From Sediminibacterium goheungense (GTDB lineage: Bacteria > Bacteroidota > Bacteroidia > Chitinophagales > Chitinophagaceae), in contig NZ_SNWP01000010.1 in assembly GCF_004361915.1 (NCBI RefSeq), positions 1,204,050 to 1,268,049 of the forward strand: DNA of 64,000 bases, given 5' to 3'. This document shows positions 30,275-53,780 of this stretch, piece by piece (positions within the stretch are counted from its first letter, which is position 1; each line of letters starts with the position of its first letter). Under the pieces are notes generated by a model that saw only the letters and a list, made by a program, of their open reading frames with translations, searched no databases and was not told the DNA's origin. Position numbers and translations under genes: made by a program.

Positions 30275-30287
30275 ACACAAGCGTTTT

Positions 30288-34950: not shown

Positions 34951-34984
34951 GTGTTTATCTCCATTGGTTTTAACCACAGTTCAT

Positions 34985-35077: not shown

Positions 35078-36079
35078 TCAGATTACCTGAAACCCATGCG
35101 CGTATGGGTCTTCATCATCAATGATAATGGTATTATACCCCGTTACAATGGCCCAGCCTTCGATGCTTGGCACAATGGCAGGCTGACCATTTACAGTTGT
35201 TTCTGCTTCAATTCTTCCAGTGAAAGTGGAACCGATGATACTTTCATGAATAAATTCATCGCCTTTTTTCAGTTTCCCTTTCGCATACCATTGCGCCATT
35301 CTTGCCGAAGTACCGGTTCCGCAGGGAGATCGGTCTATGGCTTTATCACCATAGAAAACTGCATTACGTGCGGTAGATGATGATGACAATGTTTTACCTG
35401 TCCATAAAAGATGACTCAAGCCCTTGATATTTTCATTCTCCGGATGAATGAAAGTATATTTCTCATTCAATCTTTTTCTGCAAACACGGCTCCATGAAAT
35501 GAGTTGATCAGCGGTATGATTTTCAATGCCGGTAAAATTGGTTTGCGGGTCTACAATAGCATAAAAATTTCCACCATAAGCAACATCTACTTTAATGGGA
35601 CCGAGATCCGGACATTCCACTTCGAGATCAGCTGCATACAAGAAAGCAGGTACATTGGTTAGTTTTACCGACTTTACTTTTTTACCCTCCTGCTTGTATT
35701 CAATCAGTACCAATCCGGCAGGTGTTTCAATTCTGAGCTGACCGGGTTGTTTGGGTATTACCAATCCTTCTTCAATAGCGATGGTTATGGTTCCGATGGT
35801 ACCATGGCCACACATAGGTAAGCAGCCGCTTGTTTCAATAAACAATACACCAATATCATTTTGCAGATCATGTGGTGGATACAATATGCTCCCACTCATC
35901 ATATCATGACCTCTTGGCTCAAACATTAACCCCTTTCTGATCCAATCATATTCTGCGAGAAAATGCAGTCTTTTTTCCATCATGGAGTTTCCTTGCAGTA
36001 AGGGTCCGCCACCTGCTACAAGACGAACAGGGTTACCACAGGTATGTGCATCTATGCAGAAAAATTTTTTATGTGCCAT
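35078..36079 (-). CDS. 4-hydroxyproline 2-epimerase
   Basis: A 333-residue proline-racemase-family enzyme starting at MAHKKFFCIDAHTCGNP (36079). Both catalytic cysteines are present, in LPMCGHGTIG and DRSPCGTGTSAR. This Cys/Cys pair is required for racemase or epimerase activity; trans-3-hydroxyproline dehydratases have Thr at the second position. The N-terminal CIDAHTCGNPVRLV is the form I associate with hydroxyproline epimerases. It converts trans-4-hydroxy-L-proline to cis-4-hydroxy-D-proline. The gene lies 23 bases after the semialdehyde dehydrogenase stop. Confidence 0.94.
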   Translation of the reverse strand: MAHKKFFCIDAHTCGNPVRLVAGGGPLLQGNSMMEKRLHFLAEYDWIRKGLMFEPRGHDMMSGSILYPPHDLQNDIGVLFIETSGCLPMCGHGTIGTITIAIEEGLVIPKQPGQLRIETPAGLVLIEYKQEGKKVKSVKLTNVPAFLYAADLEVECPDLGPIKVDVAYGGNFYAIVDPQTNFTGIENHTADQLISWSRVCRKRLNEKYTFIHPENENIKGLSHLLWTGKTLSSSSTARNAVFYGDKAIDRSPCGTGTSARMAQWYAKGKLKKGDEFIHESIIGSTFTGRIEAETTVNGQPAIVPSIEGWAIVTGYNTIIIDDEDPYAHGFQVI

Positions 36080-36102
36080 TTTGTTAATCGTCAAATTGAA
36101 TA

Positions 36103-37692
36103 CTATACGATCGCGTCTCGGGTATATACACCGTTAACTTTACGCATGATACCGGCTTCGTTTGCATTCTGCAGGTAAACAGGCAATAAATGTTGTGGGC
36201 AGTCCTGGTAACAAACCGGACGAACAAATCTTCTGATGGCCTCCGTTCCTACGGAAGTAGTTCTGGCATCTGTTGTAGATGGGAACGGTCCTCCGTGTAC
36301 CATAGCATGACAAACCTCAACACCGGTAGGAACATTGTTGAAGATGAGCCTACCTACTTTTTGCTGTAAAATATCAATCGTTGCTGTAAATGCAGTCAGT
36401 TCTTCGGTGGTACCGAATAAAGAACCGGTTAACTGTCCGTGTAAACTATTCAATGCTGCTTCGAGTTCTGTTTTATCCTCACAGATTACCAGCATGGAGC
36501 AGGGGCCAAACACTTCATCCTGTAAAGATGGGTTCACCATAAAATCAGTAGCAGACACAGCGAATAAGGTGGGACTTGCTTTATAAGATGTCGACTCATC
36601 GTTACCTGAATACAACTCTTTTACACCTGCTACCTGTTTCACTTTGTTACGGTCCTTATAATAACTTGTACAGATAGCCTGATTGAGCATAGTACCAGCC
36701 GCAGCGTTCGATAAAGCACTGACCAGTGATTCAGCAAAAGTATCGGCTGCCTGCGACTTGATTACAAATAACAATCCGGGATTGGTACAGAACTGACCAA
36801 CACCCAAAGTCATGGAGGCGGCAATCGCTGCTGCTGTTTCATTGGTTTTAGCAGCCAGTGTTTCAGGTAAAAGCACCACCGGATTAATGCTGCTCATTTC
36901 GGCATATAACGGAATCGGTTCTTTTCTCTTTTGTGTAACAGTAGCATACAATGCCATACCTGCCCGGTATGAGCCGGTAAAACCAATGGCTTTTACCGCA
37001 GGTTCCATTGCCAGTCTTTGTCCCAGTGTAGCGCCTTCTCCATTTAAAGAGGAGAATACACCATCGGGCATACCGGTTTTTTTAGCAGCAGCCTGTATAG
37101 CAGATGCCATCAGTTCATTGGTACCCCCATGTGAGCTGTGGGCTTTTACAATAACCGGGCAACCTGAAGCGAGTGCCGAAGCTGTATCGCCACCAGCGGT
37201 AGAAAAGGCAAAAGGAAAATTACTGGCTGCAAATACAACTACAGGACCAACAGGTTGTAAAAGCCTGCGAATATCAGACCTCGGTAAAGGTTTCCTGTCT
37301 GGCAGTGCTGTATCAATGACTGCGTCGGCCCATGAACCTTCTCTCAGTAAAGCTGCAAAGAGTTTTAACTGATTCATGGTTCTGTCTCGCTCACCTGTTA
37401 AGCGTGCAAGTGGCAGGCCGCTTTCGAGATGGGTTCTTTCCAGTAAAGTATCGCCGATCTGTAAAATTTCTTCAGCAATGGTTTCCAGAAAAACAGCACG
37501 CTGTTGAAAACTGGTTTTACTGTAAATGCCAAAAGCAGCTACCGCTTTGGCGATAGCTGCTTCGATCTCTTCGTCTGTTGCTATATGAAATGATCCGGGA
37601 AGTGTTGCTCCCTGGAGGGTACTGAATGACTGATAGGTTTCAGTCCCTTTTTTGGTTGTATCGAATCCGATTACATTATGCCCATGCAGCAT
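36103..37692 (-). CDS. 2,5-dioxovalerate (ketoglutarate semialdehyde) dehydrogenase
   Basis: A 529-residue aldehyde dehydrogenase of the KGSADH type. It opens with MLHGHNVIGFD, carries the cofactor region GPVVVFAASNFPFAFS and the Glu block (EMSSINPVV). The catalytic Cys is in GVGQFCTNPGL. These are the forms found in ketoglutarate semialdehyde dehydrogenases. The enzyme oxidises 2-oxoglutarate semialdehyde to 2-oxoglutarate, the last step of hydroxyproline breakdown; the same enzyme also ends the Weimberg-type pentose routes, of which no other sign is seen here. The start overlaps the DapA-like gene by 17 bases, so the two are probably coupled. Confidence 0.93.
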   Translation of the reverse strand: MLHGHNVIGFDTTKKGTETYQSFSTLQGATLPGSFHIATDEEIEAAIAKAVAAFGIYSKTSFQQRAVFLETIAEEILQIGDTLLERTHLESGLPLARLTGERDRTMNQLKLFAALLREGSWADAVIDTALPDRKPLPRSDIRRLLQPVGPVVVFAASNFPFAFSTAGGDTASALASGCPVIVKAHSSHGGTNELMASAIQAAAKKTGMPDGVFSSLNGEGATLGQRLAMEPAVKAIGFTGSYRAGMALYATVTQKRKEPIPLYAEMSSINPVVLLPETLAAKTNETAAAIAASMTLGVGQFCTNPGLLFVIKSQAADTFAESLVSALSNAAAGTMLNQAICTSYYKDRNKVKQVAGVKELYSGNDESTSYKASPTLFAVSATDFMVNPSLQDEVFGPCSMLVICEDKTELEAALNSLHGQLTGSLFGTTEELTAFTATIDILQQKVGRLIFNNVPTGVEVCHAMVHGGPFPSTTDARTTSVGTEAIRRFVRPVCYQDCPQHLLPVYLQNANEAGIMRKVNGVYTRDAIV

Positions 37693-38620
37693 CCTTCTTA
37701 TGTTTCAGGTTTAAATAATCTGGCAATACAGGACGTGCTGCCAGTGCTTTCTCAATAACAGCAGTTACTGCTTTCAATTCTTCACCTTCAAGTGGTAAAC
37801 GTGGCGCTCTTACATGCGCTGTACCAATACCGGTATGTTGTGCAGCAAGTTTGATATACTGAACCAGTTTTGGATGAATATCCAATTCCAGCACAGGCAG
37901 GAACCAACGATAAATTTTAAGCGCTTCATCAATCATGCCTGCTTTCACCAAACGATAAATAGCAACGGTTTCAGCCGGGAAAGCATCCACCAGACCAGCT
38001 ACCCAGCCATCGGCGCCCATACAAAGGCTTTCCATAGCCAGCGGATCAACACCGGTAAGCACACTGAAACGATTACCAAAACGGTTAATCATCCGTGTTA
38101 CATTCGACACATCACGTGTTGACTCTTTTACTGCCTGAATATTTTTATATGGCATCATTGCTTCGAACATATCCAGTGTAACCATGATTTTATAATCAAC
38201 CGGATTATTGTATATCATGATAGGTAGAGATGTATTCGTAGCTACCGCTTTGAAGTATTCTAAGGTTTCTTTACTATCTGCATTGTAACGCATGGGAGGC
38301 AATAACATCAATCCATCTGCACCATTCGTTTCAGAATCCTGCGCCAGCTGTATGGCCGCTTTAGTGGTTTGTTCTGCTATATTAATTATAACAGGAAAAT
38401 CTCCGGGTACTATCTCTTTTGAAAAGAATAATAAGTCTCTTTTTTCTTCATTCGACAAAGAACTTGCTTCGCCTAAAGAACCACCAAGAATAATACCATC
38501 TACACCCGCATCCATCTGGGCTTGTAAGTTGATTTTGTACACATCAAAATCAACAGAGTCATCTGCTTTAAATGGAGTGAGTAGTGCCGGATAAACACCT
38601 TTCCATGTTACATTAGCCAT
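37676..38620 (-). CDS. DapA-family pyrroline-4-hydroxy-2-carboxylate deaminase
   Basis: A 314-residue TIM-barrel lyase of the DHDPS/NAL family. The start ANVTWKGVYPALLTPF, the pattern GGSLGEASSLS (the GTTGE-type loop), IMIYNNPVDY with its Tyr, and the Schiff-base Lys in NIQAVKESTRD are all seen. Lysine synthesis is unlikely because the gene leads a hydroxyproline operon; there it would deaminate pyrroline-4-hydroxy-2-carboxylate to 2-oxoglutarate semialdehyde. It is the first gene of the operon, with a possible -7 box 21 bases upstream and a 650-base non-coding region before a divergent AraC-type regulator. Confidence 0.9.
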   Translation of the reverse strand: MANVTWKGVYPALLTPFKADDSVDFDVYKINLQAQMDAGVDGIILGGSLGEASSLSNEEKRDLLFFSKEIVPGDFPVIINIAEQTTKAAIQLAQDSETNGADGLMLLPPMRYNADSKETLEYFKAVATNTSLPIMIYNNPVDYKIMVTLDMFEAMMPYKNIQAVKESTRDVSNVTRMINRFGNRFSVLTGVDPLAMESLCMGADGWVAGLVDAFPAETVAIYRLVKAGMIDEALKIYRWFLPVLELDIHPKLVQYIKLAAQHTGIGTAHVRAPRLPLEGEELKAVTAVIEKALAARPVLPDYLNLKHKKDAAWA

Positions 38621-40188: not shown

Positions 40189-40269
40189 TTAGCTTTTAGG
40201 CTTTAGCTAATTTGCTTCCACAAGCAAATCATCACTTTACCTGGAAAAGGCTAAGAGCTAAAAGCTTAG
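40189..40269. repeat. word-repeat palindrome (word AGCTTTTAG)
   Basis: The left arm 40189-40210 holds two variants of the AGCTTTTAG word. The right arm 40249-40269 holds inverted variants, and a TTTGCTT/AAGCAAA pair sits between them. It fills the gap between two convergent genes and reaches into the stop codon of the S9 peptidase gene. Confidence 0.6.
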
Positions 40270-42554
40270 TCCTCCGTTGCCAACTCATCCGTATTTCGAT
40301 CGGGCGGATCAACGCCTAATAAACTCTTCACAAAGAAATCTCTTTTCTTAGCGCGTCCATAAGGCCCGCCATCACTATGGCCCATACCGGGTACTGCCAG
40401 AAAATCAAATGTTTTCTTTGCTTTGATCAAGGCGTCTGCCACTCGGTAAGTTGACTCAGGGGGTACATTGGTATCTGCTTCTCCAACGATTAACAATAAT
40501 TTCCCTTTGAGCTTATGTGCATTGGTAATATTCGATTGCTCGTCATAATGCTTCCCAATCGGATAACCCATCCACTGCTCATTCCACCATTGTTTATCTA
40601 CCCTGTTATCATGGCAACCACAAGCCGATACAGCAGCTTTGTACCACATAGGATGAAACAATAAGCCTCCTAATGAGTTTTGTCCGCCTGCCGATGTACC
40701 ATACAAACCTACTCTGGTAGTATCAGCCTGTGGATATTTTGCTGCCATAGCGCGCATCCAGGCGATACGATCGGGAAAACCTGCATCGGCAAGGTTTTTC
40801 CAGCATACATCATGAAAGGCTTTTGATCGATTGGCAGTACCCATACCATCAATCTGCACCACGATAAAACCGAGCTCTGCCATGCTTTGCATTTCACCAA
40901 ATGCGGAAAAAGATTTTGGTACAAAAGCATCCTGCGGACCGGCATAAATATTCTCAATAATCGGGTAACGTTTTTTAGGATCAAAATCAGACGGGCGGCA
41001 GATAATACCCCAGATATCGGTTACACCATCCCTTCCCTTCGCATGAAAAGGTTCTGGCAATCTGAAACCAGCTGCTACATGTTTACTGATATCGGCCTTC
41101 TCCAGTTCCATCAGTTGTTTGCCATCTGATACACGTCCCAGCACAGAAACAGGCGCCTGATCTACCGTTGAATAAGTATCTACAAAATATTGTTTATCCG
41201 GCGACCAGGTTATACGATGGTTAAACCCGGGTTTGGTAAGCGTCACCATATTTTTCCCATCAAACCCAATACGGTAATAATGCAGGAAATAAGGATCTTC
41301 ACCTTTGTTCATCCCACTTGCCTGGAACCAGATTTCTCTTTTCTTTACATCCACACTATCTACCGAACGGACTACCCATTCTCCCTTTGTAACCACATTT
41401 TTAATGGTGGCATTTTTGGCATCCACCAGGTAAATATGTCGCCATCCATCTTTTTCTGTAACCCATAAAATTTCTGAAGTCTCAGGAAGATAATAGGTGA
41501 AAATCCGCTGCTCATAAATAAATGTGCTGGTTTGCTCATCTACAATGTTACGCGTACTGCCATCAACTGCATTTACTTCAATGATCCTGAAACGCTGGTG
41601 ACCACGATCCACTCTTTCAAACATAAAGTGATCATTGTCTCCTTTGTTCCAGTTGATTTTGGGAGCATCAAAGAAATCAATGATATCTGTTTTTACTTTA
41701 ACAACCGCTTTATCCACTACTTTGATCAGGAACATTTCATAGGTTGAAAAATCATCTCCCGGTTGTTTATAAGGACGCTCTTTCATTTCGCCACGTGTGG
41801 TGCCTGGAACTGAAGTGAGCACATAATAAACAGGTTTATCCACTACACGTTTTATTTTGTAGGCAATCAGGTATTTGCCATCCGGCGACCATGTAATATC
41901 ACCATAAGGCAATGCTGAAGTTCCGTCATTCGTGTATTGAACAGCAGGCCCTCCGCCCACAGGCTCCAGATAGATATTGTTATCTTTTACAGATACATTC
42001 CATTGGTTATCGGGCGATGTTCTGGCGCTTCTGTTACGCTGCCAGCGTCCCGCGACACGGGTTAGCGATGGATAGTCTGTTTTATCTACCGGTAAAGAAT
42101 CAATTTTTGTGGTAGCATAAGTCGACAGGTCCACATCAAAAAATGTACGACCGAGAGATATAGCCAGTTTTTTTCCATCAGGATATAAATAAGCATTCCT
42201 GATAGGTAAACGGTTGGCTTCTGCAGCCTTACCCTGTACTGAACTGATGGCTGCAGCCATTTTAGCTGCATCAAATAACGGACGCTTTATATTTTTTACC
42301 GGATCAACATACAGGTATTCAGACTGGCTGTCGGGCATTGCATTCCGGTACCAAAAAGCAGAGGGACCGCTCCAGTTAGGTGTTACACTCAATTTGAATG
42401 CCGTTCGACGCGCCAGACTATCACGTTGATCTGCGACTTTATATCTTGTAAGCATCTCATTCCGGGAAGGGGCATAAGATGGTAAGGGCTTTTGCTGTGC
42501 AGTCAGTGTACTTATTACCGCAAACAAAGATGTTAAGAGTAACAACGGCTTCAT
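40266..42554 (-). CDS. S9 family peptidase, DPP4-like
   Basis: A 762-residue exported serine peptidase with a signal peptide ending near residue 19 (LTAQ). The N-terminal DPPIV-type beta-propeller (about 60-500, with TWSPDGKYLIAYK) is followed by an alpha/beta-hydrolase. The catalytic triad is visible: Ser621 in YGTSAGGQ, Asp694 in GEADTNVPP and His726 in GMGHSDGG. DPP4-type enzymes cut after a penultimate Pro (or Ala, and often Hyp). It is the last gene of the operon GH127-GH51-S9, starting 7 bases after GH51. A Pro/Hyp-cutting peptidase beside two arabinofuranosidases fits the use of hydroxyproline-rich glycopeptides. Confidence 0.92.
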   Translation of the reverse strand: MKPLLLLTSLFAVISTLTAQQKPLPSYAPSRNEMLTRYKVADQRDSLARRTAFKLSVTPNWSGPSAFWYRNAMPDSQSEYLYVDPVKNIKRPLFDAAKMAAAISSVQGKAAEANRLPIRNAYLYPDGKKLAISLGRTFFDVDLSTYATTKIDSLPVDKTDYPSLTRVAGRWQRNRSARTSPDNQWNVSVKDNNIYLEPVGGGPAVQYTNDGTSALPYGDITWSPDGKYLIAYKIKRVVDKPVYYVLTSVPGTTRGEMKERPYKQPGDDFSTYEMFLIKVVDKAVVKVKTDIIDFFDAPKINWNKGDNDHFMFERVDRGHQRFRIIEVNAVDGSTRNIVDEQTSTFIYEQRIFTYYLPETSEILWVTEKDGWRHIYLVDAKNATIKNVVTKGEWVVRSVDSVDVKKREIWFQASGMNKGEDPYFLHYYRIGFDGKNMVTLTKPGFNHRITWSPDKQYFVDTYSTVDQAPVSVLGRVSDGKQLMELEKADISKHVAAGFRLPEPFHAKGRDGVTDIWGIICRPSDFDPKKRYPIIENIYAGPQDAFVPKSFSAFGEMQSMAELGFIVVQIDGMGTANRSKAFHDVCWKNLADAGFPDRIAWMRAMAAKYPQADTTRVGLYGTSAGGQNSLGGLLFHPMWYKAAVSACGCHDNRVDKQWWNEQWMGYPIGKHYDEQSNITNAHKLKGKLLLIVGEADTNVPPESTYRVADALIKAKKTFDFLAVPGMGHSDGGPYGRAKKRDFFVKSLLGVDPPDRNTDELATED

Positions 42555-42561
42555 TGGGTTG

Positions 42562-45138
42562 TTATTTTTTAGTGGGTATTCTTATAACAGTAATCGAATA
42601 TTTGGGAAAACTGTGTACCAGTTTTTTAGCGCCGGAAGTTTTTCCAGTCGTCACTACCGGTACATATTTTTTGGGATCAGCAAATGAATTTTCTGCCGTT
42701 GTTTCATCAGAAGCAATGGTATATACTTTATAGGTACCAACAGCTTCTCCCGCACCCTCAAATTCGATTTCGGTTTCTATAGCGTCGTCATTACCATTTA
42801 CCATCTTAACAATCAGATCACCTGTTTCTTTATCCTTGCCTGCAATACCGATTAATTTTTTGGGTTCAGTATAAGAAAGCAGCAATACATCATCCAGGTA
42901 ACAATCTACTTTTTCATACCCTACTTCCAGTCTTATTTTATACCATCTTCCTGTTTCAATCGGTTTTGCCAATCTTTTAGTAGGTGATACATTGGCTACA
43001 GACCCTTCACTTACTATTTCAAATATGGTACTGTTATTCACCAAAGCACCAATATGTGCACGAAGCATTGAATTGGGGCCATTCACAGCAAATGGAATGA
43101 TAAAGGCATTGGTACCCGATGTTTTTCTTGCTTCCAACTGCAGTGTATAGGTATCGAAAGACTTGTCTTTCAGTATCATCAATCTTTGTGCGCCCTGTGC
43201 TGTTTGTGCCATGGCTCCATCTTTCAACTGCCAGGAGCCCCTTACTGATTGCCATTCATCTGCTTTATTTACAAAATCACTTTTGTAAACCGTTTGTCCA
43301 TTTTGAATCACTTCGATATTGCGATACTCTGTTTGTGTATCCCAGGTAGCCAAACCAATACCTCCTTTATTTCTGGCTTTCTTTACGGTTGATGGTTTCT
43401 GCTGTAACGATACGGTATAGTTCTCGTCTGACCGTTGTTCATTCATTAACTGAATGGTATAATATGATATACGTGCAAAGCTGCTATCAGCCTTATACTT
43501 GATAAGATTCACGGGCCAGTGCCTTGTATTTACATTTTCGAATAATGGAGCATAACTCGACATCTTTACCAGATCACCATTATTCTCCATACCCAATATA
43601 TAAGCTGCATCATTCAATGCTGCCTGCATATTACCATTTCCTACGCCTGCATTGGTAGCATACTCACCTACATATACTTCATAATCGCCCCGTTTATAAT
43701 TATCAAAGTGATCATAATTGGTGAAGGACCAGAATGCACTTTTATACGCATGTTCATCGGCTATATCAGTTACTTTGATACTATCCAGTGTACGACGGTT
43801 AATATCTCCGATACCCATACTCGATACAATTTTAATATCCGGGTATTTAGCCTTAATAGCTTCATGGAATTGATTGTATCGTTTCGCATACCAGGGACCA
43901 TGTTGTTCGTTACCCACTTCGATATACTTCAGGGGAAACGGCTTCGGATGGCCATTCTGCGCACGAAGCTTACCCCATTTAGAAGTAACGGGCCCAACTG
44001 CATACTCAATCGCATCCAGTACATCATTAATAACAGTCTGTACTTCTCCATCACTTATAAATGTACCACTGCGGAACTCACAAGAAACACCGGCGTTGAA
44101 AACGTACAATGCATCTGCTTTAATGTCTTCACAAAACTGTAAATATTCATGATAACCAAAACCATCACTCGACCAGTATCCCCATACACTGAATGTACCA
44201 GGTCTGTTTTCAAGTGGGCCAATTGAATTTTTCCAGTTAGGGGCACTTTCTACATTTACACCCTCTACAAAACAACCTCCGGGCCAGCGAACGAAAGCAG
44301 GTTTTAAATCGGCCAGATATTGCGCCAGATCGGCACGTAAACCATTGGGTCTGTTTTTAAATGTTTTCTTTGGAAACAACGATACAAAATCAAATGAAAT
44401 TTCACCGGTAGATTCCAACCTGAAAGCAAAACTCGATTTACCATCGGTTTCAGATGGTATCAATGTACAGGTATATTTTTTCCAGTCTTTACCATCAACG
44501 GATTTGAAAGTATGTGATGCTATTTCTTTTCCAGCTGATGATAATAAAACAACTGTTAGCGGACCTTTATAAGCCTCATTTGTTTTAGTATAAAAGCTAA
44601 GTGTATAGGATTCACCTTTTTTTGCGTTAATACCCCAGAAACCTTCATTAACGAAATAATCTTTTCCGGTTCCCGACAACTGTTCAACTGTAAGCAGTGC
44701 CGATTGAGGTGTTGCAGTTGTTAGCGGCTTTTCAGTACTAATGGTTGCATTTACTTTGGCATTGTCTCCCAGTGATAATTTCCAGTAAGGCATGGCAGTT
44801 TTAACAGGCCATGGCATGCGCCAGTCGCTCGCCCTGCCATTAAGGTTATAGTGAGGTTTTTTATCAGGGTTTGCATTCAGCATACCATTTTCTACAACAG
44901 AACCCGGAGGTATTCTGCTTTCCTCAAAACCGCGGTTCTGGATTAATTCAGCATATAAACCACCTTCCCCGCCGTGGCTGATCTCTTCAAAGAAAATGCC
45001 ATGCAGGTTGGGAGATACTGTATTTTTTACCTTATCGGTATACACTTTCATAGCTGCACGTTCCTGTGCCACCGGGAAAGATGCTGATGCTAATAAGCAT
45101 CCCATCAATACCGCACGAAAAGAATATTTGAATTGCAT
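42562..45138 (-). CDS. GH51 alpha-L-arabinofuranosidase, multi-domain
   Basis: An 858-residue exported enzyme starting at MQFKYSFRAVLMG (45138), with the signal peptide ending near residue 27. After the YTDKVKNTVSPNLHGIFFEEI strand pair comes an inserted carbohydrate-binding-like module (about 90-245), then the GH51 TIM barrel with the acid/base Glu411 in EVGNEQHGPW and the nucleophile Glu492 in VGEYATN. A LamG-like beta-sandwich (about 600-750) and the GH51 C-terminal beta domain follow. GH51 removes terminal alpha-L-arabinofuranose, as found at the end of extensin Hyp-arabinosides and on arabinan side chains. It lies 17 bases after a GH127 gene. Confidence 0.94.
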   Translation of the reverse strand: MQFKYSFRAVLMGCLLASASFPVAQERAAMKVYTDKVKNTVSPNLHGIFFEEISHGGEGGLYAELIQNRGFEESRIPPGSVVENGMLNANPDKKPHYNLNGRASDWRMPWPVKTAMPYWKLSLGDNAKVNATISTEKPLTTATPQSALLTVEQLSGTGKDYFVNEGFWGINAKKGESYTLSFYTKTNEAYKGPLTVVLLSSAGKEIASHTFKSVDGKDWKKYTCTLIPSETDGKSSFAFRLESTGEISFDFVSLFPKKTFKNRPNGLRADLAQYLADLKPAFVRWPGGCFVEGVNVESAPNWKNSIGPLENRPGTFSVWGYWSSDGFGYHEYLQFCEDIKADALYVFNAGVSCEFRSGTFISDGEVQTVINDVLDAIEYAVGPVTSKWGKLRAQNGHPKPFPLKYIEVGNEQHGPWYAKRYNQFHEAIKAKYPDIKIVSSMGIGDINRRTLDSIKVTDIADEHAYKSAFWSFTNYDHFDNYKRGDYEVYVGEYATNAGVGNGNMQAALNDAAYILGMENNGDLVKMSSYAPLFENVNTRHWPVNLIKYKADSSFARISYYTIQLMNEQRSDENYTVSLQQKPSTVKKARNKGGIGLATWDTQTEYRNIEVIQNGQTVYKSDFVNKADEWQSVRGSWQLKDGAMAQTAQGAQRLMILKDKSFDTYTLQLEARKTSGTNAFIIPFAVNGPNSMLRAHIGALVNNSTIFEIVSEGSVANVSPTKRLAKPIETGRWYKIRLEVGYEKVDCYLDDVLLLSYTEPKKLIGIAGKDKETGDLIVKMVNGNDDAIETEIEFEGAGEAVGTYKVYTIASDETTAENSFADPKKYVPVVTTGKTSGAKKLVHSFPKYSITVIRIPTKK

Positions 45139-45155
45139 AGCTGCTTGCCTTTTTT

Positions 45156-47561
45156 TTATTTTACGATCCACTCATGTACACCTGTTGCATGATCTTTCGG
45201 TAAACGAATTTTCATTCGTATCGCTGTAGTTTTTACAGGTGTGAAACGAACTGTATTGTATTTATCTTTTGCATTTTCATAGGGGGCTGTTGCCTGTACA
45301 GGTACCCACTGATCACCTTGCTTGTATAAAAGTTCCCATGAGGCAGGAATCCGGCAACCGCCAAACGGGCTATCATCGTACCAATATACTTTTGATTCAG
45401 ACACTGTTTGTTCCTGATCAAAATCGTATTGTATCCACTCTTCTGTATCTTTCTTGGGCCACCAATGCAGGTATAATGCCGATTTGTCTTCTGAGCTAGA
45501 AGGCTCGAACTGATCATTTAAGGCATTCAGCATCCTTGGATTATTGATAGAACCGCTGACTTTACTTTTTGAAGCTATTGTTGGAGCTGGCTTAGGACGT
45601 GCTGCCGATTCCTGATAAGGAATCCAGACAACCATTTCTCCCGAACCACGGTTATTCCATGAGTAATAAGGAATAGCTTTTACAGTCTGTTCTTTTTTTG
45701 ATAACTCATCACTATTCAGTTGTCTGGTCGTAGCACTACCAGTACCATTGAGTAATAACACGCCATTCAGCAATTGTGGGTCGTAAGATTCTTTTAATGA
45801 TGCCTGTTGAGGAACCACAATATTTTGTACGACTTTATCCGCATGATCAGGGCCTTCCAGACAGAATACGATCGGACCTCTTTGCAAGGCGAATTTGCCC
45901 TGGTCTTCTTTTATTTTTTCATTCGCCAGTACTTTCTCTATTTCCATCGGGAGGGTGAAACTTACTACATCTCCTTTTTTCCATGTACGGTTAAACACCG
46001 CATATCCTTTTTCAAGTGTATATGCTACGGGTTTACCATTCACACTGATTTCAATTTTTGTTACTTTCTGATCCGCAAAACGATATAAGTCACCTGGCAC
46101 TGCTTCCTGTCTTGCCCATCCGGGTATTCGCACGCGTAAAGCAAAAGGAATTTGCTTTTCCGGGTTCACCACAATTTTTACGCCACCTTCCCAGGGATAA
46201 GCTGTTTCCTGTAAAATTTTTATTTTTCCGGCAGGCAATGTAACATCTGCTTCATTGGTCATGAAGAGGTTTACGTATACATTATTCTGATCCTGTGCAT
46301 ACACATAACCAGGAACCGAAGGCATAAAACGTGTGACGTTTGATATACAGCATGCACAACCAAACCAGGCGCTACGGGCATGTTGTCCCATAGATGCAAG
46401 TGGATTGGGATAAAAGAATTTTTTACCATCCTGTGCAATACCCGACAAAACGCCATTATAAAGTACACGTTCCATTACATCTATGTATTTGGCATCACCA
46501 TGCAATAAAAACATTCTGATGTTCCAGTATACATTCGCAATAGAGGCACAGGTTTCTGCGTAGGCCGACATATTGGGCAGTTCGTAAGCTGCACCAAATG
46601 CTTCACCCGCACCGGTTGCTCCGATACCTCCGGTGAGGTACATTTTTTTTGTTACCACATCAGACCAGATATTGTCGATGGCTTTGATATAAGAAGCATC
46701 CCCGGTGAGTGCGGCCACATCGGCCATACCTGTGTACATATAGGCGGCACGTACTGCATGACCAACCGCTTCATTCTGTTGTACCACCGGCTTATGCGAC
46801 TGGCTGTATTGTGAACCACGTACCTGACCATTTCCACGGATATCGAGGAAATATTTTGCAAGGTCCAGGTATTCCTTCTTTCCGGTTACGCGATACAATC
46901 TTGATAAGCCTGTTTCAATTACCTGGTGCCCCGGAAAATAAGGAGCTTTGCCATACAGAAAGTCCTTTACAATCAGGTCTGCATTTTTGGTGGCAATATT
47001 CAGCAGATTCTTTTTACCGGTAGAGAGATAGTGTGCTACCGCAGCTTCATATAAATGACCTGCATTGTACAACTCATGACTCAGATCAGGATCTTTCTCC
47101 CAGCGTTTCGGACTGATCCATGGATGCAGCTTTGCAGGCTTCATGGTACGGAAAGTATAGAGATAACCATCCGGCTCCTGTGCTTCTCCAATGATAGTAA
47201 TTAAAGAGTCGATTGACTTATCCAGTGCAGGATTGGGTTTTACCTGCAATGCATAAGAAGCACCTTCAATCACTTTAAAAATATCAGAATCATCAAATGG
47301 GTATTCTGTTAATTTTTCCGGCGGCATTTTACCCGCTGCTTTCAGAAAATTATCTACACGACCTGTTTCTCTGCTTTTTTGTAATACGTACGGAATGGTA
47401 ACTTCCGCATTGATATTAATGCGTGGCGCCCAGAACTGATCATGTACATGTACATGATTAAATGTTACGGGCTGAATAGGATAATCTTTAACCTGCGCTT
47501 GCAGGACAGATGCAGACAATAAAATACCTGCAGCAAAAAATACACTTTTGCAGTTACTCAT
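45156..47561 (-). CDS. GH127 beta-L-arabinofuranosidase with C-terminal F5/8C-like domain
   Basis: An 801-residue exported enzyme with a signal peptide ending near residue 22 (VLQAQ). The GH127 domain covers residues 30-640. Its zinc and thiol site is Glu336 and Cys338 (AETCAS) with Cys404 and Cys405 (GCACCIS), close to the numbering of HypBA1 (Glu338, Cys340, Cys417, Cys418). Residues 670-801 form an F5/8C-like module (WIQYDFDQEQTVSESKVYWYD). In the other GH127 of the window that module is at the N-terminus, so these are not recent duplicates. It lies 159 bases after galM and begins a tight block with GH51 and the S9 peptidase. Confidence 0.93.
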   Translation of the reverse strand: MSNCKSVFFAAGILLSASVLQAQVKDYPIQPVTFNHVHVHDQFWAPRININAEVTIPYVLQKSRETGRVDNFLKAAGKMPPEKLTEYPFDDSDIFKVIEGASYALQVKPNPALDKSIDSLITIIGEAQEPDGYLYTFRTMKPAKLHPWISPKRWEKDPDLSHELYNAGHLYEAAVAHYLSTGKKNLLNIATKNADLIVKDFLYGKAPYFPGHQVIETGLSRLYRVTGKKEYLDLAKYFLDIRGNGQVRGSQYSQSHKPVVQQNEAVGHAVRAAYMYTGMADVAALTGDASYIKAIDNIWSDVVTKKMYLTGGIGATGAGEAFGAAYELPNMSAYAETCASIANVYWNIRMFLLHGDAKYIDVMERVLYNGVLSGIAQDGKKFFYPNPLASMGQHARSAWFGCACCISNVTRFMPSVPGYVYAQDQNNVYVNLFMTNEADVTLPAGKIKILQETAYPWEGGVKIVVNPEKQIPFALRVRIPGWARQEAVPGDLYRFADQKVTKIEISVNGKPVAYTLEKGYAVFNRTWKKGDVVSFTLPMEIEKVLANEKIKEDQGKFALQRGPIVFCLEGPDHADKVVQNIVVPQQASLKESYDPQLLNGVLLLNGTGSATTRQLNSDELSKKEQTVKAIPYYSWNNRGSGEMVVWIPYQESAARPKPAPTIASKSKVSGSINNPRMLNALNDQFEPSSSEDKSALYLHWWPKKDTEEWIQYDFDQEQTVSESKVYWYDDSPFGGCRIPASWELLYKQGDQWVPVQATAPYENAKDKYNTVRFTPVKTTAIRMKIRLPKDHATGVHEWIVK

Positions 47562-47720: not shown

Positions 47721-48884
47721 TTATTTCTGAACACCAAACTGATAAATGGTTGTTGTCTGGTATTTTTTCCCTGGCTCTAATGTTGTTGATGGGAATGAAA
47801 GCTGGTTAGGCGCATCTGGATAATGTTGTGTTTCAAGGCAGAATGCAGAACGGTGACCATATGCTTTCTGCTTTTTACCTATCAATTTACCATCCAGAAA
47901 ATTACCGCTGTAGAATTGAATGGCAGGCTCTGTAGTATATACATCCATCAAAATACCTGTTACTGTAGAATATACGGATGCAGCTTTCTCCAATCCATTT
48001 GCCTGTTTTTTATCCAATACAAAATTATGATCGTAACCCAGACCGTTTTTGATTTGCACATGATCTGCATTAATCTCTTTCCCGATTTGTTTGGCTGTTC
48101 TGAAATCGAAAGGTGTACCTTCTACCGTAACAGGATCCCCTGCCGGAATCAATGTTGAGTCAACAGCTGAATATTTAGACGCATTAATGGTAAGCATATG
48201 ATCGGTAATGGTAGTATCACCCTGTCCATTCAGGTTGAAATAGGCATGATTGGTAAGATTTACTACAGTAGGTTGATCCGTAGTTGCTTCATAATCAATC
48301 TTCAATTCATTGGCATCGGTTAATGTATAGATCACCTTAACAGTGAGGTTACCAGGATAACCTTCTTCACCATCTTTTGAAGTATAACTCAATTCGAGAG
48401 TATGGCCATCTTTCTGAACAGCATCCCATACCTGGTTATGAAAACCCATGGGTCCGCCATGCAGGCTGTTCACACCATTATTGGCTGACAGTTGATAGGT
48501 TTTACCATTCAATGAAAATTTAGCTTTAGCGATTCTGTTACCATAACGGCCAATCAATGCACCAAAATAGGTTTCGCTTCGGTTACGGTAATGGTTCAGG
48601 CTATCATATCCCAATGTGATGTCGGTCATGACACCGTTTTTATCAGGCACCACCAATGCCACTACCCTGCCACCATAATTGGTAATAGCAGCCTCAACAC
48701 CGGATGCATTTCTCAGTATATACAGGTGTACCTGCTTCTCATTTACAGTAGCTTCATAGGCTGCCTTTAATGCAGTTGTATCAATTACTGCAGCTGATGG
48801 TTCTGTTGTATCTGCAGGCCTGGAAGTACATTGTACAAAGAGTGTGAGGACTGTGATTACGGCTAAAAAATGTAGCTTTTTCAT
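47721..48884 (-). CDS. galM: lipid-anchored aldose 1-epimerase
   Basis: A 387-residue mutarotase with a lipobox (LFVQC, Cys near residue 19) followed by a Thr/Pro/Ser linker. Family landmarks are NYGGRVVALVVPD, RYGNRIAKAKFSLNGKTYQL, NNGVNSLHGGPMGFHNQVW with the catalytic His, NLTNHAYFNLNG with the second His, and the Glu in AFCLETQHYPDAPN. It would equilibrate released sugar anomers outside the cytoplasm before uptake. It is divergent from the Nudix-type arabinose regulator, and a putative AraR site lies 78 bases upstream of its ATG. Confidence 0.95.
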   Translation of the reverse strand: MKKLHFLAVITVLTLFVQCTSRPADTTEPSAAVIDTTALKAAYEATVNEKQVHLYILRNASGVEAAITNYGGRVVALVVPDKNGVMTDITLGYDSLNHYRNRSETYFGALIGRYGNRIAKAKFSLNGKTYQLSANNGVNSLHGGPMGFHNQVWDAVQKDGHTLELSYTSKDGEEGYPGNLTVKVIYTLTDANELKIDYEATTDQPTVVNLTNHAYFNLNGQGDTTITDHMLTINASKYSAVDSTLIPAGDPVTVEGTPFDFRTAKQIGKEINADHVQIKNGLGYDHNFVLDKKQANGLEKAASVYSTVTGILMDVYTTEPAIQFYSGNFLDGKLIGKKQKAYGHRSAFCLETQHYPDAPNQLSFPSTTLEPGKKYQTTTIYQFGVQK

Positions 48885-48961
48885 ATGATGCTGATGTGGT
48901 TTTGCAATCGGTATAAATATCGAATATTTCTATCCGGGCCGTCCCAAATTAGAAAAAAAAT

Positions 48962-48983
48962 ATTAATTGTAAAAAAAACACTT
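48962..48983. promoter_or_regulatory. putative AraR operator between galM and araR
   Basis: On the minus strand AAGTGTTTTTTTTACAATTA shares the AAGTGTT, TTT and ACA blocks with the araB site. It is centred between two divergent genes and could control both. A CTAATTTG -7-like box for galM lies 10 bases further along the minus strand. Confidence 0.45.
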
Positions 48984-49070
48984 ATTATTTTTTACGGATT
49001 ACTTATATTTAATGCAGAGATTTGTGATTTAGAAAACCCATCTCTCAAGCTTTTGAGATAGTTTATTCTT

Positions 49071-49775
49071 ATGGTCAGGTATCATAAACAGACACGTATA
49101 TTGGTTGCCATAGATTGTATCATCTTTGGCTTTGATGGCAGCGAACTGAAGCTCTTGCTGGTTCAGCGCGGCCTTGAACATGAAAAAGGTAAATGGAGCC
49201 TGATGGGGGGCTTTATTCAGAAAGACGAGGACTTTGTAGAAGGTTCTGCACGTATTCTGAATGAGCTTACAGGTCTGGAAGGCGTGTATATGGAGCAACT
49301 CTATGCCTTTGGCGATGTAAACCGTGACCCCATTGAACGAACCGTTTCTGTTGCCTATTTTGCACTCATCGATATACATAAGTATGAGAAACAGTTGAAT
49401 GAAGATTATCATGCAGAATGGTTTCCGATAAAAGATACGCCCAAACTCATTTTCGACCACCAGCAAATGGTGGATATGGCCAAGGAAAAGCTCCGTTATA
49501 AAGCCGCTTTCCACCCAATCTTATTTGAACTCTTACCTGAAAAATTCACGCTGCCACAGCTCCAGAGCCTGTATGAAGGCATTTTTGATTATCAGTTTGA
49601 CAAACGAAATTTCAGTCGCAAACTTCAGTCTACCAAACTGCTGGTAAAACAAAAAGACAAAGACAAGGAGAGCTCAAAAAAGGGTGCCTTTTACTACAAA
49701 CTCGATAAAAGACGCTATGCAGCTAACTTCCATGCCTTCCTGAACCTCATTCCAAACCCTGGAAACTTAAAATAA
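49071..49775 (+). CDS. araR: Nudix-type (NrtR family) L-arabinose regulator AraR
   Basis: A 234-residue protein. Residues 8-145 form a Nudix domain whose catalytic box is broken: GGFIQKDEDFVEGSARILNE has Ile and Leu-Thr where the REUxEE core should be, so hydrolysis is unlikely. Residues 150-234 form the winged helix of the NrtR family (FTLPQLQSLYEGIFDYQFDKRNFSRKLQ, then KGAFYYKLDKRRY). Regulators of this build control arabinose genes in Bacteroides (AraR, BT0354). It lies directly before araBDA and the transporter, and is divergent from galM. A terminator separates it from araB. Confidence 0.9.
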   Translation: MVRYHKQTRILVAIDCIIFGFDGSELKLLLVQRGLEHEKGKWSLMGGFIQKDEDFVEGSARILNELTGLEGVYMEQLYAFGDVNRDPIERTVSVAYFALIDIHKYEKQLNEDYHAEWFPIKDTPKLIFDHQQMVDMAKEKLRYKAAFHPILFELLPEKFTLPQLQSLYEGIFDYQFDKRNFSRKLQSTKLLVKQKDKDKESSKKGAFYYKLDKRRYAANFHAFLNLIPNPGNLK

Positions 49776-49836: not shown

Positions 49837-49858
49837 ACAGAACGCATATTGCTTGCTA

Positions 49859-51538
49859 ATGAAAAAAAACAACTACGTTATTGGGGTAGATTATGGAACA
49901 GACTCTGTTCGTTCGATCATTGTAAATACTACTTCAGGAGAAGAGATCGCCTCATCTGTACACTATTACAGCCGCTGGAAAAAAGGATTGTATTGTAACG
50001 CTGCTGAAAGTCAGTTCAGACAACATCCGCTTGATTATGTAGAAGGACTTACAGCAACCATCACAGATTGTTTACAAAAAGCAGGTCTGGCTGTTGCTGA
50101 AAATGTTCGGGCTATTGGTATTGATACCACAGGTTCTACACCGGTGGCAGTAGATGCAGCGGGCCAACCGCTGGCATTGAATCCTGCATTTGCAGAGAAC
50201 CCAAATGCCATGTTTGTTTTATGGAAAGATCATACCAGTGTTCAGGAAGCCGCCGAAATAAACCTGCATGCAACTAAATTCGATACCAACTATTTACAGT
50301 TTGTAGGAGGTATTTATTCATCAGAATGGTTCTGGGCTAAATTGCTGCATATTCTTAGAACAGACAAAGCCGTTAGAGAAGCCTGTGTGTCATGGGTAGA
50401 ACACTGCGACTGGATTCCCTTCCTGTTAACGGGCGGAAAAAATATTGCAGATCTTAAGAGAAGTGTTTGTGCAGCAGGTCATAAAGGTTTGTGGGCTGAG
50501 GCTTTCGATGGCTATCCGCCAAACGATTTCTTTACACAACTCGATCCGCTGTTAAACGGATTTACGGATTCGCTGGGTAAGCAAACCTATACCTCTGATC
50601 AGTCGGCAGGTACGCTTTCACCTGAATGGGCCCAAAAGCTGGGCTTACCAAATTCTGTGGTAGTTGCTGTAGGCGCATTTGATGCACATATGGGTGCTGT
50701 TGGCGGACAAATTGAGCCATACCATCTCAGTAAAGTAATGGGAACATCCACCTGTGATATACTGGTAGCCCCACAGACCGACCTGGGCGACAAAACAGTG
50801 AAGGGCATCTGCGGTCAGGTAAATGGTTCTGTTATTCCAGGCATGCTGGGTCTGGAAGCAGGTCAGTCGGCATTTGGCGATACTTATGCATGGTTTCGGG
50901 AAATGATTGTAAGACCGGTAAGACAACTAATAAAAGCATCTAACATACTGGACGAAACAACAGCCGCAGAACTGGATAAAGAATTATCCGACAAACTCAT
51001 ACCTTATCTTTCAGCAGAAGCCGCTAAACTCCCTTTACAGTTGGATGACGAACTGGCCATTGACTGGTTTAATGGCAGAAGAACACCAGATGCCAACCAG
51101 TTTTTAACTGGTAGCTTACATGGTTTAAATTTAGGGACCGATGCCACGGCTATTTTTAAATCGCTGGTGGAAGCCACCTGTTTTGGTGCTAAAATGATAG
51201 TGGATCGCTTCATCAACGAAGGGGTACCCGTTAAAGGGTTAATCGGACTGGGTGGTGTAGCAAAGCGTTCACCTTATATTATGCAGGTAATGGCAAACAT
51301 TATGAATATGCCGATACGCATTCATAAAAGTGAACAGACCTGTGCATTGGGTGCTGCCATGTTTGCGGCTACAGCAGCCGGCTTATATGGAAAAGTAGAA
51401 GAAGCTATGGAACATATGGGACAAGGCTTTGATGCCGTATATACGCCCGATGCAGCCATCGTTCCTTATTATCAGCAACGTTATATACAATACCAGCAGG
51501 CTGGCGCTTACACAGAATCTAAAGCCCCTAAACAATAA
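49859..51538 (+). CDS. araB: L-ribulokinase AraB
   Basis: A 559-residue FGGY-family kinase, with the ATG at 49859 preferred over a TTG two codons earlier. The first ATP/phosphate motif is VIGVDYGTDSVRSIIV. The ribulokinase-type insert around NAMFVLWKDHTS and the block FVGGIYSSEWFWAKLLH follow, and the C-terminal FGGY region has LIGLGGVAKRSPYIMQVMAN and GAAMFAATAAG. It phosphorylates L-ribulose to L-ribulose 5-phosphate. It is the first gene of the araB-araD-araA-transporter operon, with an operator-covered promoter just upstream. Confidence 0.96.
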   Translation: MKKNNYVIGVDYGTDSVRSIIVNTTSGEEIASSVHYYSRWKKGLYCNAAESQFRQHPLDYVEGLTATITDCLQKAGLAVAENVRAIGIDTTGSTPVAVDAAGQPLALNPAFAENPNAMFVLWKDHTSVQEAAEINLHATKFDTNYLQFVGGIYSSEWFWAKLLHILRTDKAVREACVSWVEHCDWIPFLLTGGKNIADLKRSVCAAGHKGLWAEAFDGYPPNDFFTQLDPLLNGFTDSLGKQTYTSDQSAGTLSPEWAQKLGLPNSVVVAVGAFDAHMGAVGGQIEPYHLSKVMGTSTCDILVAPQTDLGDKTVKGICGQVNGSVIPGMLGLEAGQSAFGDTYAWFREMIVRPVRQLIKASNILDETTAAELDKELSDKLIPYLSAEAAKLPLQLDDELAIDWFNGRRTPDANQFLTGSLHGLNLGTDATAIFKSLVEATCFGAKMIVDRFINEGVPVKGLIGLGGVAKRSPYIMQVMANIMNMPIRIHKSEQTCALGAAMFAATAAGLYGKVEEAMEHMGQGFDAVYTPDAAIVPYYQQRYIQYQQAGAYTESKAPKQ

Positions 51539-51555: not shown

Positions 51556-52263
51556 ATGAATAGTATGTCTAAATATGATCAGCTAAAAAAAGAAGCATAT
51601 GATGCCAATATGCAGTTACCCAAACTGGGATTGGTATTGTTCACGTTTGGTAATGTAAGTGTAGTTGACAGAGCCAACCAGGTTTTTGCCATTAAACCCA
51701 GTGGTGTACCTTACGAAGAGCTGAGTCCTGAAAAAATGGTGATTGTTGATTTTGATGCAAATGTGATTGAAGGAGCATTACGTCCGTCATCTGATACCAA
51801 AACCCATGCAGTGCTCTATAAACATTGGACTTCAATAGGCAGCATTGTTCATACCCATTCAACGTATGCAACGGCCTGGGCACAGGCTCAAAGGGATATT
51901 CCCATATTTGGTACTACGCATGCGGATCATACCACAGCTTTTATTCCCTGCGCACCTCCTATGAGTGACGAAATGATTAAGGGTGACTATGAAACAGAAA
52001 CCGGTTTCCAGATTTTAAACTGTTTCAAAGAAAAAGCCTTGGATCCGGTTGAAACAGAAATGATGCTGGTTGGTAACCATGCTCCATTTACCTGGGGTAA
52101 AAATGCGCACAAAGCTGTTTATAATGCAGCAGTGCTTGAGGAAGTAGCCAGAATGGCTTATCTCACACTACAGATCAATCCGCAGGCCCCTGTTCTGAAA
52201 GATGCACTGATCAAAAAACATTTTGAAAGAAAACACGGCCCTGATTCTTATTACGGTCAATAA
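51556..52263 (+). CDS. araD: L-ribulose-5-phosphate 4-epimerase AraD
   Basis: A 235-residue class II aldolase-fold epimerase. The zinc ligands are visible in [15 protein letters not shown] and in the later [10 protein letters not shown]. The substrate loops [13 protein letters not shown] and [13 protein letters not shown] are typical. It turns L-ribulose 5-phosphate into D-xylulose 5-phosphate, which enters the pentose phosphate pathway. The start is either 51556 or the Met three codons later ([12 protein letters not shown], 51565), which fits other family members well. It follows araB by 17 bases. Confidence 0.95.
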
Positions 52264-52289: not shown

Positions 52290-53780
52290 ATGATTAATCT
52301 GAAGCAACTGGAAGTTTGGTTTGTTACAGGGAGCCAGCATTTATATGGCGAAGAAACATTGAAGCAGGTAGCTGCCAATTCAACCGTCATTGCAGATGCG
52401 CTGAACAAAGCACAGGGTATGCCTGTGCAAATCGTTTATAAACCCACTGTAAAATCTACGGAGGAAATATTTGCCATTTGTCAGGAAGCTAATAATGCAA
52501 CGAATTGTATAGGCATTATTACCTGGATGCACACTTTCTCTCCTGCTAAAATGTGGATTGCCGGCTTAAAGATCTTACGCAAGCCATTACTCCATTTTCA
52601 TACCCAATTCAATCGTGATATCCCCTGGGCAACCATTGATATGGACTTCATGAATCTGAACCAGAGTGCGCATGGCGACCGAGAGTTTGGCTTCATCATG
52701 AGCAGGATGCGCATAGATAGAAAAGTTGTGGTAGGTCATTGGAGCGATGCTGAGTGTATTGATAAAATAAACGGATGGATACGTGCTGCTGCGGGCTGGC
52801 ACGACTGGCAGGGTGCCCGCTTTGTTCGTTTTGGTGATAATATGCGCTTTGTAGCGGTTACCGAAGGTGATAAAGTAGAAGCTGAAGTTAAATTTGGTTA
52901 CTCTGTAAATACCTATGGTGTTGGTGATCTGGTACAGGTAATGAATGAAGTAAGTGACAGCGATATAAATGCACTGGTTGATGAATATATAGCATCGTAT
53001 ACCCTGATGGATAGCTTACAAAAAGGCGGTGCTCAACATGCTTCCTTACAAACGGCTGCTAAAATTGAGCTGGGTATTGAACGCTTTTTGCAACAGGGTA
53101 ATTTCAAAGGTTTTACTACCACATTTGAAGACTTACATGGTCTTGAGCAGTTACCGGGCATTGCTGCACAGCGTCTGATGGCCAAAGGCTATGGATTTGC
53201 AGGTGAAGGCGACTGGAAAACAGCGGCACTCGTTCGCGCCATGAAAGTAATGGGTAGCGGACTAAAAGGTGGCAACTCTTTTATGGAAGATTACACCTAC
53301 CATTTTAATCCCGATAATAAACTTGTACTCGGTGCTCATATGCTCGAAATATGTGAATCGATTGCCGATGGCAAGCCCAGCTGCGAAATTCACCCACTGG
53401 GGATTGGCGGTAAGGCCGATCCAGTTAGATTGGTATTTAATTCCGGATCGGGCCCTGCTATCAATGCCTCTATTGTAGATATGGGTAACCGTTTCCGCTT
53501 ACTGGTGAATGATGTAATGGCTGTTGCCCCCATCAGTAGTTTGCCAAAGCTGCCTGTGGCAAGGGTTTTATGGAAACCTTATCCGGATATGCAAAATGGT
53601 TGTGCTGCATGGATACTGGCCGGTGGCGCCCACCATACCTGTTATTCACAGAATATTACATCTGAACAGATGGAAGATTTCGCAGCCATGGCTGGTATTG
53701 AGTTTGTTTGCATCAACAACAACACCAAAATGTATCAATTTAAAAATGAATTGCGCTGGAATGATAAATTTTATCAATAA
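52290..53780 (+). CDS. araA: L-arabinose isomerase AraA
   Basis: A 496-residue isomerase. The opening [21 protein letters not shown] is the classic AraA start. The manganese ligands lie in the family blocks around [22 protein letters not shown] and EDYTYHF, and near the C-terminus in [10 protein letters not shown]. It converts L-arabinose to L-ribulose, the first step inside the cell. The length is normal. It follows araD by 26 bases and precedes the symporter by 34 bases. Confidence 0.97.

Follow-up and report, generated by a model that had tools for sequence, protein, structure and literature searches.

A GH127-GH51-S9 peptidase gene cluster between hydroxyproline and arabinose catabolic genes in Sediminibacterium goheungense, with a probable role in the use of plant hydroxyproline-rich glycoproteins

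Results

The GH127-GH51-S9 trio

We analyzed a stretch of 64,000 nucleotides of the Sediminibacterium goheungense genome (assembly GCF_004361915.1, contig NZ_SNWP01000010.1, positions 1,204,050 to 1,268,049; referred to here as the window, with all positions counted from its first letter), focusing on three adjacent genes for a family GH127 enzyme (GH127a), a GH51 enzyme, and an S9 peptidase. An initial annotation, made from the sequence alone, had described these genes as one tight operon, and their order, strand, and spacing are borne out by the coordinates and by the Pfam domains: 17 bases separate the GH127 stop codon from the GH51 start, and 7 bases separate the GH51 stop codon from the ATG of the S9 gene. 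The ATG at 45138 was taken as the GH51 start; the mechanical open reading frame begins at an upstream GTG (45171) and overlaps GH127. The gene spacing suggests that the three are co-transcribed. The trio, listed in reverse of its reading order, and the gene upstream of it are as follows:

40266 to 42554, minus strand: S9 peptidase of 762 amino acids with a DPP4 fold and a Sec-type N-terminus, without the double-Glu helix (Pfam, alignment, structure model)
42562 to 45138, minus strand: GH51 alpha-L-arabinofuranosidase with a Sec-type N-terminus and an extra domain inserted in the C-terminal region (Pfam)
45156 to 47561, minus strand: GH127a, a beta-L-arabinofuranosidase-type enzyme with a C-terminal F5/8 C domain and a Sec-type N-terminus (Pfam)
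47721 to 48884, minus strand: aldose 1-epimerase-like lipoprotein (GalM), probably the first gene of the trio unit (profile matches, spacing in relatives)

Domain scores for the trio far exceed the curated Pfam cut-offs. GH127a (P0003) matches Beta-AFase-like_GH127_cat at 357.8 bits against a cut-off of 24.9 and also carries the other two GH127 domains (middle and C-terminal), followed by an F5/8-type C domain at its C-terminal end, the GH51 protein (P0002) matches the alpha-L-arabinofuranosidase catalytic and C-terminal domains at 173.2 and 78.7 bits and has MgGH51 as its best solved relative, and the S9 protein (P0001) matches Peptidase_S9 at 149.2 bits and DPPIV_N at 133.4 bits. A Pfam 3keto-disac_hyd match is inserted inside the C-terminal arabinofuranosidase domain of the GH51 protein (42562-45138). 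The GalM-like gene lies 159 bases upstream of GH127a; because only about 30 bases separate the aligned parts of these genes in two related loci (L080 and L082), it probably belongs to the same unit as the trio.

The surrounding locus

A 4-hydroxyproline (Hyp) operon starts 1.6 kb past the S9 gene and runs on the same strand from 38.6 down to 33.7 kb. With this operon on one side of the trio and an arabinose operon on the other, the window encodes enzymes that would handle each half of an arabinosylated Hyp glycopeptide. The relevant locus extends from about 21 kb to 55.5 kb, so the interval first assigned to the system was too narrow. The remaining features are as follows:

21129 to 23891, minus strand: second GH127 enzyme, with an N-terminal extension (catalytic domain, 230.8 bits)
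23915 to 25585, minus strand: M1-type metallopeptidase (HESGH) with a Sec-type N-terminus (profile, motif)
25710 to 27296, minus strand: SusD-like protein (profile match)
27320 to 30280, minus strand: SusC-like TonB-dependent receptor (homologs near S9 in Dyadobacter, Flavobacterium, and Paracnuella)
30578 to 31807, minus strand: multiheme cytochrome c-like protein, a tentative member of the system (between SusC and DUF885; same position in L080 and L081)
31895 to 33682, minus strand: DUF885 protein with a Sec-type N-terminus and a HELIAGH motif, predicted metallopeptidase (profile, motif)
33706 to 34977, minus strand: FAD D-amino-acid dehydrogenase/oxidase (DAAO), predicted cis-4-hydroxy-D-proline dehydrogenase (family; role by neighborhood)
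35078 to 36094, minus strand: 4-hydroxyproline 2-epimerase (HypE; NF010578)
36103 to 37692, minus strand: aldehyde dehydrogenase (ALDH), predicted alpha-ketoglutarate semialdehyde dehydrogenase (family; role by neighborhood)
37676 to 38620, minus strand: DHDPS-family enzyme, predicted pyrroline-4-hydroxy-2-carboxylate deaminase (family; pathway role as given in the available part of PMC4113996)
39271 to 40173, plus strand: AraC-family regulator, divergent from the hydroxyproline operon and convergent with S9 (profile match)
49071 to 49775, plus strand: NrtR/AraR-type Nudix regulator (profile match)
49853 to 51538, plus strand: FGGY kinase, predicted ribulokinase (profile match)
51556 to 52263, plus strand: class II aldolase, predicted L-ribulose-5-phosphate 4-epimerase (profile match)
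52290 to 53780, plus strand: L-arabinose isomerase (profile match)
53815 to 55500, plus strand: sodium:solute symporter (SSF), predicted arabinose uptake (profile match)

We take the DUF885 family to be metallopeptidases. HypE scores 610.9 bits against the NCBIfam equivalog NF010578 (cut-off, 376); members of the DAAO, DHDPS, and ALDH families lie adjacent to it and were assigned by family and neighborhood, none of the three reaching an equivalog cut-off among the profile matches listed. The bacterial trans-4-hydroxyproline pathway described in the available part of PMC4113996 consists of the same four families, likewise adjacent, whereas here they are joined to arabinofuranosidases, peptidases, and a SusC/SusD (SusCD) pair; the word stems "arabin" and "glycosid" are absent from the main text of that paper. 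Sec-type N-termini, read by eye, are present on the glycoside hydrolases and peptidases, and none was seen on the four Hyp enzymes. The combination of a SusC/SusD pair with catabolic enzymes is that of a polysaccharide utilization locus. SusCD, M1, and the second GH127 gene fall outside the stretches compared for the related loci L079 to L082; we join them to the locus because of their adjacency, the homologs found near S9 elsewhere, and a relative in L085. Elsewhere in the window (7555-10938), one frame carries B12-binding, MeaB GTPase, and methylmalonyl-CoA mutase domains.

The S9 peptidase has a DPP4 fold and lacks the DPP4 anchor helix

The peptidase had initially been called DPP4-like, and its fold agrees with that description. 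An AlphaFold2 model of the protein is mostly confident (mean pLDDT, 84.3; pTM, 0.83), and its nearest solved structures by Foldseek and VIA-align are DPP4, DPP8/9, and (by Foldseek) prolyl tripeptidyl peptidase, about level with one another; against 5yp1_C, 609 residues are aligned with a Z score of 27.6 and a root mean square deviation of 7.2. A fold search of a model cannot show function. The alignment shows that all three catalytic motifs (Ser, Asp, and His) are retained, along with the DxNV Asn, so that the protein shares with the S9B dipeptidyl peptidase IV family both the two-domain fold and the catalytic triad motifs.

What it does not share is the double-Glu motif, which in DPP4 sits on a helix inserted in propeller blade 4 and binds the substrate N-terminus, as described in the available part of PMC5807507. 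This helix is absent from all 81 S9 orthologs aligned, none of which has residues at the three Glu columns; in the window protein DG...PYGD is joined directly to ITWSPDG, and the segment is 17 residues long in 81/81. The letters EE occur in one of the 81 segments, outside the Glu columns. True DPP4 proteins taken as controls retain the motif (DWVYEEE in the window's own genome and DWAYEEE in L093). The S9 nucleophile lies in the motif G[TK]SAGG. Opposite Tyr662 and Tyr666 of DPP4, all 81 orthologs carry QWWNEQWM, such that the S1 tyrosines are matched by invariant tryptophans (residue numbering from the available part of PMC5807507; the two tyrosine columns were placed by eye).

The initial annotation had reasoned that DPP4-like enzymes favor a penultimate Pro, and with the anchor helix missing from every ortholog this can no longer guide the choice of activity; DPP4-type dipeptidyl activity is unsupported and is not to be assumed. 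A true dipeptidyl peptidase, freeing X-Pro and X-Hyp dipeptides after deglycosylation, would agree with the DPP4 fold and with the retained catalytic motifs; given the Ser motif G[TK]SAGG and the loss of the helix in a genome whose true DPP4 has WVYEEE, we consider it very improbable. We consider a prolyl/hydroxyprolyl oligo- or endopeptidase the most likely identity of the protein: because the double-Glu motif is absent, the S1 stretch altered, and the catalytic residues kept, its activity is expected to be Pro/Hyp-directed and untied to a free N-terminus.

S9 orthologs cluster with hydroxyproline genes

We examined the neighborhoods of S9 orthologs in two overlapping sets (shared loci include L086, L090, L092, L098, L126, L127, L133, and L156), a named set comprising the best 80 of 577 confirmed relatives (21 of them Dyadobacter) and a family set of 23 loci, together with 34 paralog loci as controls (14 with 31 to 37% identity to the window protein and 20 more). 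Three loci, L062 to L064 (46 to 48% identity), fall in neither set. Thresholds were set by us, and the stretches covered about 10 kb (named) or 9 kb (family and controls) on each side, less at contig ends (controls L183, L184, and L192 and several named loci). Alignment A1 represents 18 of 24 ortholog loci, and alignment A2 contains 34 sequences. The Sediminibacterium roseum locus L085 was left out because its S9 interval (L085:10001-12235) has one in-frame stop in that record.

Core Hyp genes or DUF885 occurred within about 10 kb of S9 in 51/80 named and 12/23 family loci and in 1/34 controls (Fisher P = 1.9e-5 for the family set, uncorrected for relatedness). For the core Hyp genes alone, the counts were 34/80, 7/23, and 1/34 (P = 0.0053); DUF885 was found within 10 kb in 39 of the 80 named loci, and an M1 homolog was near S9 in 9. 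Genomes bearing the S9 gene also carried HypE more often than the others (19/21 versus 73/174; P = 2.9e-5, uncorrected for relatedness), and in HypE-bearing genomes 11 of 22 S9 loci, the window included, lay 35 kb or less from HypE, against 0.26 expected. Random expectations here and below assume 5- or 6-Mb genomes with even placement, and the counts include the window's genome. In the six Flavobacterium loci, S9 stands inside the Hyp operon in the order DHDPS-ALDH-HypE-S9-DUF885-DAAO on one strand, and in L137, L140, and L152 (Flavitalea and Puia) it lies between DAAO and DHDPS. The link between peptidase and hydroxyproline proposed at the outset is thus supported, with a Hyp operon 1.6 kb from S9 and orthologs that cluster with Hyp genes in many genera. 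The sole control with Hyp or DUF885 neighbors, L076 (2297-19499), carries a paralogous S9 (34% identical) in a like locus of Hyp genes, DUF885, GH127, and SusD, as if separately recruited.

The tight trio did not hold up as a conserved unit. The S9 protein of L079 is 92% identical to that of the window, and L079 to L081 (the last from Sediminibacterium soli) have the same gene order as the window from araD through DUF885, as does L082 up to its contig end. In the named set, 13 of 80 loci have GH127a about 10 kb or less from S9, and its rate in the family set is at control level; GH127a, GH51, and S9 are contiguous in only 5/80 (L079 to L082 and L098, a Filimonas locus; L044 is the same contig) and near one another in L049, L116, and L134. 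GH51 is near S9 in 4/23 family loci and 0/34 controls (P = 0.022). SusCD homologs were found in 27/80 named loci (21 being Dyadobacter), 0/23 family loci, and 1/34 controls. In most loci the partners of S9 are Hyp genes, DUF885, or SusCD and not the other two genes of the trio. In one Dyadobacter locus (L102:9974-22071), S9 stands beside a ThuA/DUF7133/cupredoxin protein, SusCD genes homologous to those of the window, and an aminopeptidase P (M24) gene.

These neighborhoods bear on a second explanation, in which the S9, DUF885, and Hyp genes serve Hyp peptides of any source, such as collagen, and plant-sugar enzymes joined them in some lineages only. The Flavobacterium loci have S9 inside the Hyp operon, with GH127a within 10 kb in one of the six, and the one that was scanned beyond this point (L093) continues with genes for an amino acid permease and an M61 glycyl aminopeptidase; on the other hand, plant-sugar enzymes share a unit with S9 in the window and in L079 to L082. 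We regard this as a tentative but reasonable possibility, partly compatible with the use of plant glycoproteins, and it is live for other genera. The L093 operon itself (6275-18440), which holds S9, DUF885, the permease, and the M61 enzyme, may serve other Hyp proteins, e.g., collagen.

GH127 enzymes and their link to hydroxyproline operons

Both GH127 enzymes of the window have the catalytic domain and retain, in alignment, the equivalents of E322, E338, C340, C417, C418, H142, Y145, H194, and R273 in HypBA1 numbering. These include the catalytic residues, the Cys3-Glu zinc site, and four substrate residues, the last two being named in the available part of PMC10850190. At 477.8 bits, GH127a falls below the cut-off of 950 for aceric acid hydrolase (NF049879), and this candidate was rejected. 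A relative of the second GH127 enzyme lies beside DHDPS and DAAO in S. roseum (L085).

A tree built with 14 relatives from group A, 9 from group B, and 11 from group C splits the GH127 enzymes of the bacterial family into clades A (with the window's GH127a), B (the neighbor of A), and C. In the best tree, group A is not a single clade owing to the long branch of L076; its other 14 rows form one clade (95/95). We set the groups from identity and coverage, scored up to five candidates per genome, and typed gene positions by hand; 92 of 98 genomes were kept for the comparison with HypE, and rows from G076:C434:6257 down (fragments and matches of about 36 to 43%, including the window's second GH127) were left out. 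Among same-genome pairs, a GH127 gene was within 12 kb of HypE in 11/35 for A, 20/34 for C, and 0/20 for B, a total of 31/89 against 0.43 expected.

In L200 (3372-14846) and L208 (3291-13551), the Hyp operon holds a group C GH127 gene and a second PF07944 enzyme between HypE and DAAO, this second beta-arabinofuranosidase gene being flanked by GH127 and DAAO and sharing their strand. The second enzyme of L200 is of GH146 type, its best solved relative being 5opj (499.7 bits), which we take to be the GH146 enzyme BT0349. BT0349 is named as GH146 in the available part of PMC10850190. Ten group C neighborhoods were picked for having GH127 near HypE, and 6 of the 10 also have a second beta-arabinofuranosidase gene like that of L200. 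Beta-arabinofuranosidase genes thus stand inside hydroxyproline operons, as is expected for a substrate of Hyp-linked arabinose.

This placement argues against a plain arabinan or arabinogalactan locus, in which GH127, GH51, GalM, and araBDA would act on side chains of pectin or arabinogalactan proteins (AGPs) and S9 and the Hyp genes would be neighbors for other reasons. Such side chains need only arabinofuranosidases, the arabinose genes adjoin the trio, and GH127a is close to 6ex6. However, GH127 groups A and C, and not B, are found near HypE far beyond chance, GH127/GH146-type genes occur inside Hyp operons, and galactanase and arabinanase families were not seen among the 40 window proteins scanned; we consider this explanation improbable.

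Regulation signals

An AT-rich block at 48960-48990, between the Nudix regulator and galM, is near identical in the five loci aligned (the window and L079 to L082) and is a possible operator. As an operator common to the arabinose operon and the trio, it was set aside: a search of the window at up to 3 mismatches found no further copy of a 25-base piece of it, and matches to a looser pattern are at chance level there. Promoter-like sites in the window are below shuffled numbers and terminator-like sites near them, and no exact match to a Bacteroidota promoter pattern was found in the window.

Discussion

The locus probably serves the use of plant hydroxyproline-rich glycoproteins (HRGPs) of the extensin type, with arabinosylated Hyp, and the trio would be the part of it that strips sugars and cuts peptides. 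The gene content, domains, retained catalytic residues, and conserved neighborhoods described above suggest the substrates, an order of action, and co-regulation. SusCD would bring glycopeptides into the periplasm, where GH51 would take off terminal alpha-arabinofuranose (alpha-Araf) and the GH127 enzymes beta-Araf from Hyp; the S9, DUF885, and M1 peptidases would then cleave the bared Hyp-rich peptides. Arabinose would enter through the SSF symporter for catabolism by araBDA, and Hyp would be taken up and converted to alpha-ketoglutarate by the epimerase, D-amino-acid dehydrogenase, DHDPS-type deaminase, and aldehyde dehydrogenase. The use of Pro/Hyp-rich glycopeptides suggested by the initial annotation is strongly supported by genes that it had not cited: the adjoining Hyp operon, the DUF885 and M1 genes, SusCD, the second GH127 gene, and the arabinose operon. 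The tight trio as a unit and the DPP4 specificity are not supported.

Several observations weigh against this interpretation. GH127a is near S9 in 2/23 family loci and 1/34 controls (P = 0.56), 10 of the 23 family loci have none of the genes sought, and in the 21 Dyadobacter loci S9 is accompanied by SusCD, the stretch examined containing no Hyp genes. No permease is found among the window's Hyp genes, unlike in L093 and L111, although the remaining genome was not searched for one. GH121 (HypBA2) was not found in the genome, where only a partial match of 21.4 bits was obtained against a cut-off of 3200. The best solved relative of GH127a is 6ex6 (735 bits), which we take to be BT3674. Because an enzyme of that type helps degrade larch arabinogalactan, according to the available part of PMC10850190, AGP or another beta-Araf glycan is possible as the substrate.

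Enzymes for Hyp-linked arabinose are known from Bifidobacterium and Xanthomonas. Like HypAA, HypBA1, and HypBA2 of Bifidobacterium longum (GH43, GH127, and GH121), the locus pairs alpha- and beta-L-arabinofuranosidases, GH127 among them, for Hyp-linked arabino-oligosaccharides. The window genome lacks GH121, however, and has GH51 in the unit where Bifidobacterium has GH43; peptidases and Hyp catabolism adjoin here, and SusCD stands in place of the ABC importer given for Bifidobacterium in the available part of PMC7263609. In Xanthomonas euvesicatoria, XeHypAA, XeHypBA2, and XeHypBA1 likewise lie near a prolyl peptidase gene (PMC6085000). The idea of a peptidase is not new, since Nakamura et al. 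(2018) already suggested that this prolyl oligopeptidase gene, described as a pseudogene, may act on HRGPs. The available part of that paper says that the species does not use L-arabinose and mentions no Hyp operon, whereas the window has an open reading frame for the peptidase, with both catabolic operons alongside. Use of HRGPs in Latescibacteria was predicted from GH127 and peptidases, and such a locus is not named in the available part of PMC4454575. Within the open-license texts searched by titles, abstract starts, and term counts (GH146 not being a term), no paper was found to link Hyp epimerase to GH127, to extensin, or to a utilization locus of Bacteroidota, nor was coupling to Hyp catabolism found.

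A bolder reading, which we think somewhat unlikely, is that the S9 clade is a new peptidase type specialized for hydroxyproline. Loss of the double-Glu anchor would free it from the peptide N-terminus, and the rebuilt S1 pocket (invariant QWWNEQWM, G[TK]SAGG) would accept Hyp, perhaps still arabinosylated, and so cut inside Hyp-rich stretches that ordinary proteases spare. Together with GH127/GH146 and the Hyp operon, it would then form a widespread Bacteroidota pathway using both halves of HRGPs.

Few parts of the plant cell wall resist proteases as strongly as HRGPs. In the literature found, as far as its available parts go, the bacterial systems are studied for the sugars. If the interpretation is true, a locus in which the removal of arabinose is coupled to the cutting of Hyp peptides and the oxidation of Hyp would open the recycling of HRGP carbon and nitrogen to genetic study and be a source of Hyp-directed peptidases, and a beta-arabinofuranosidase gene beside a 4-Hyp epimerase gene would serve as a genome marker for such degraders.

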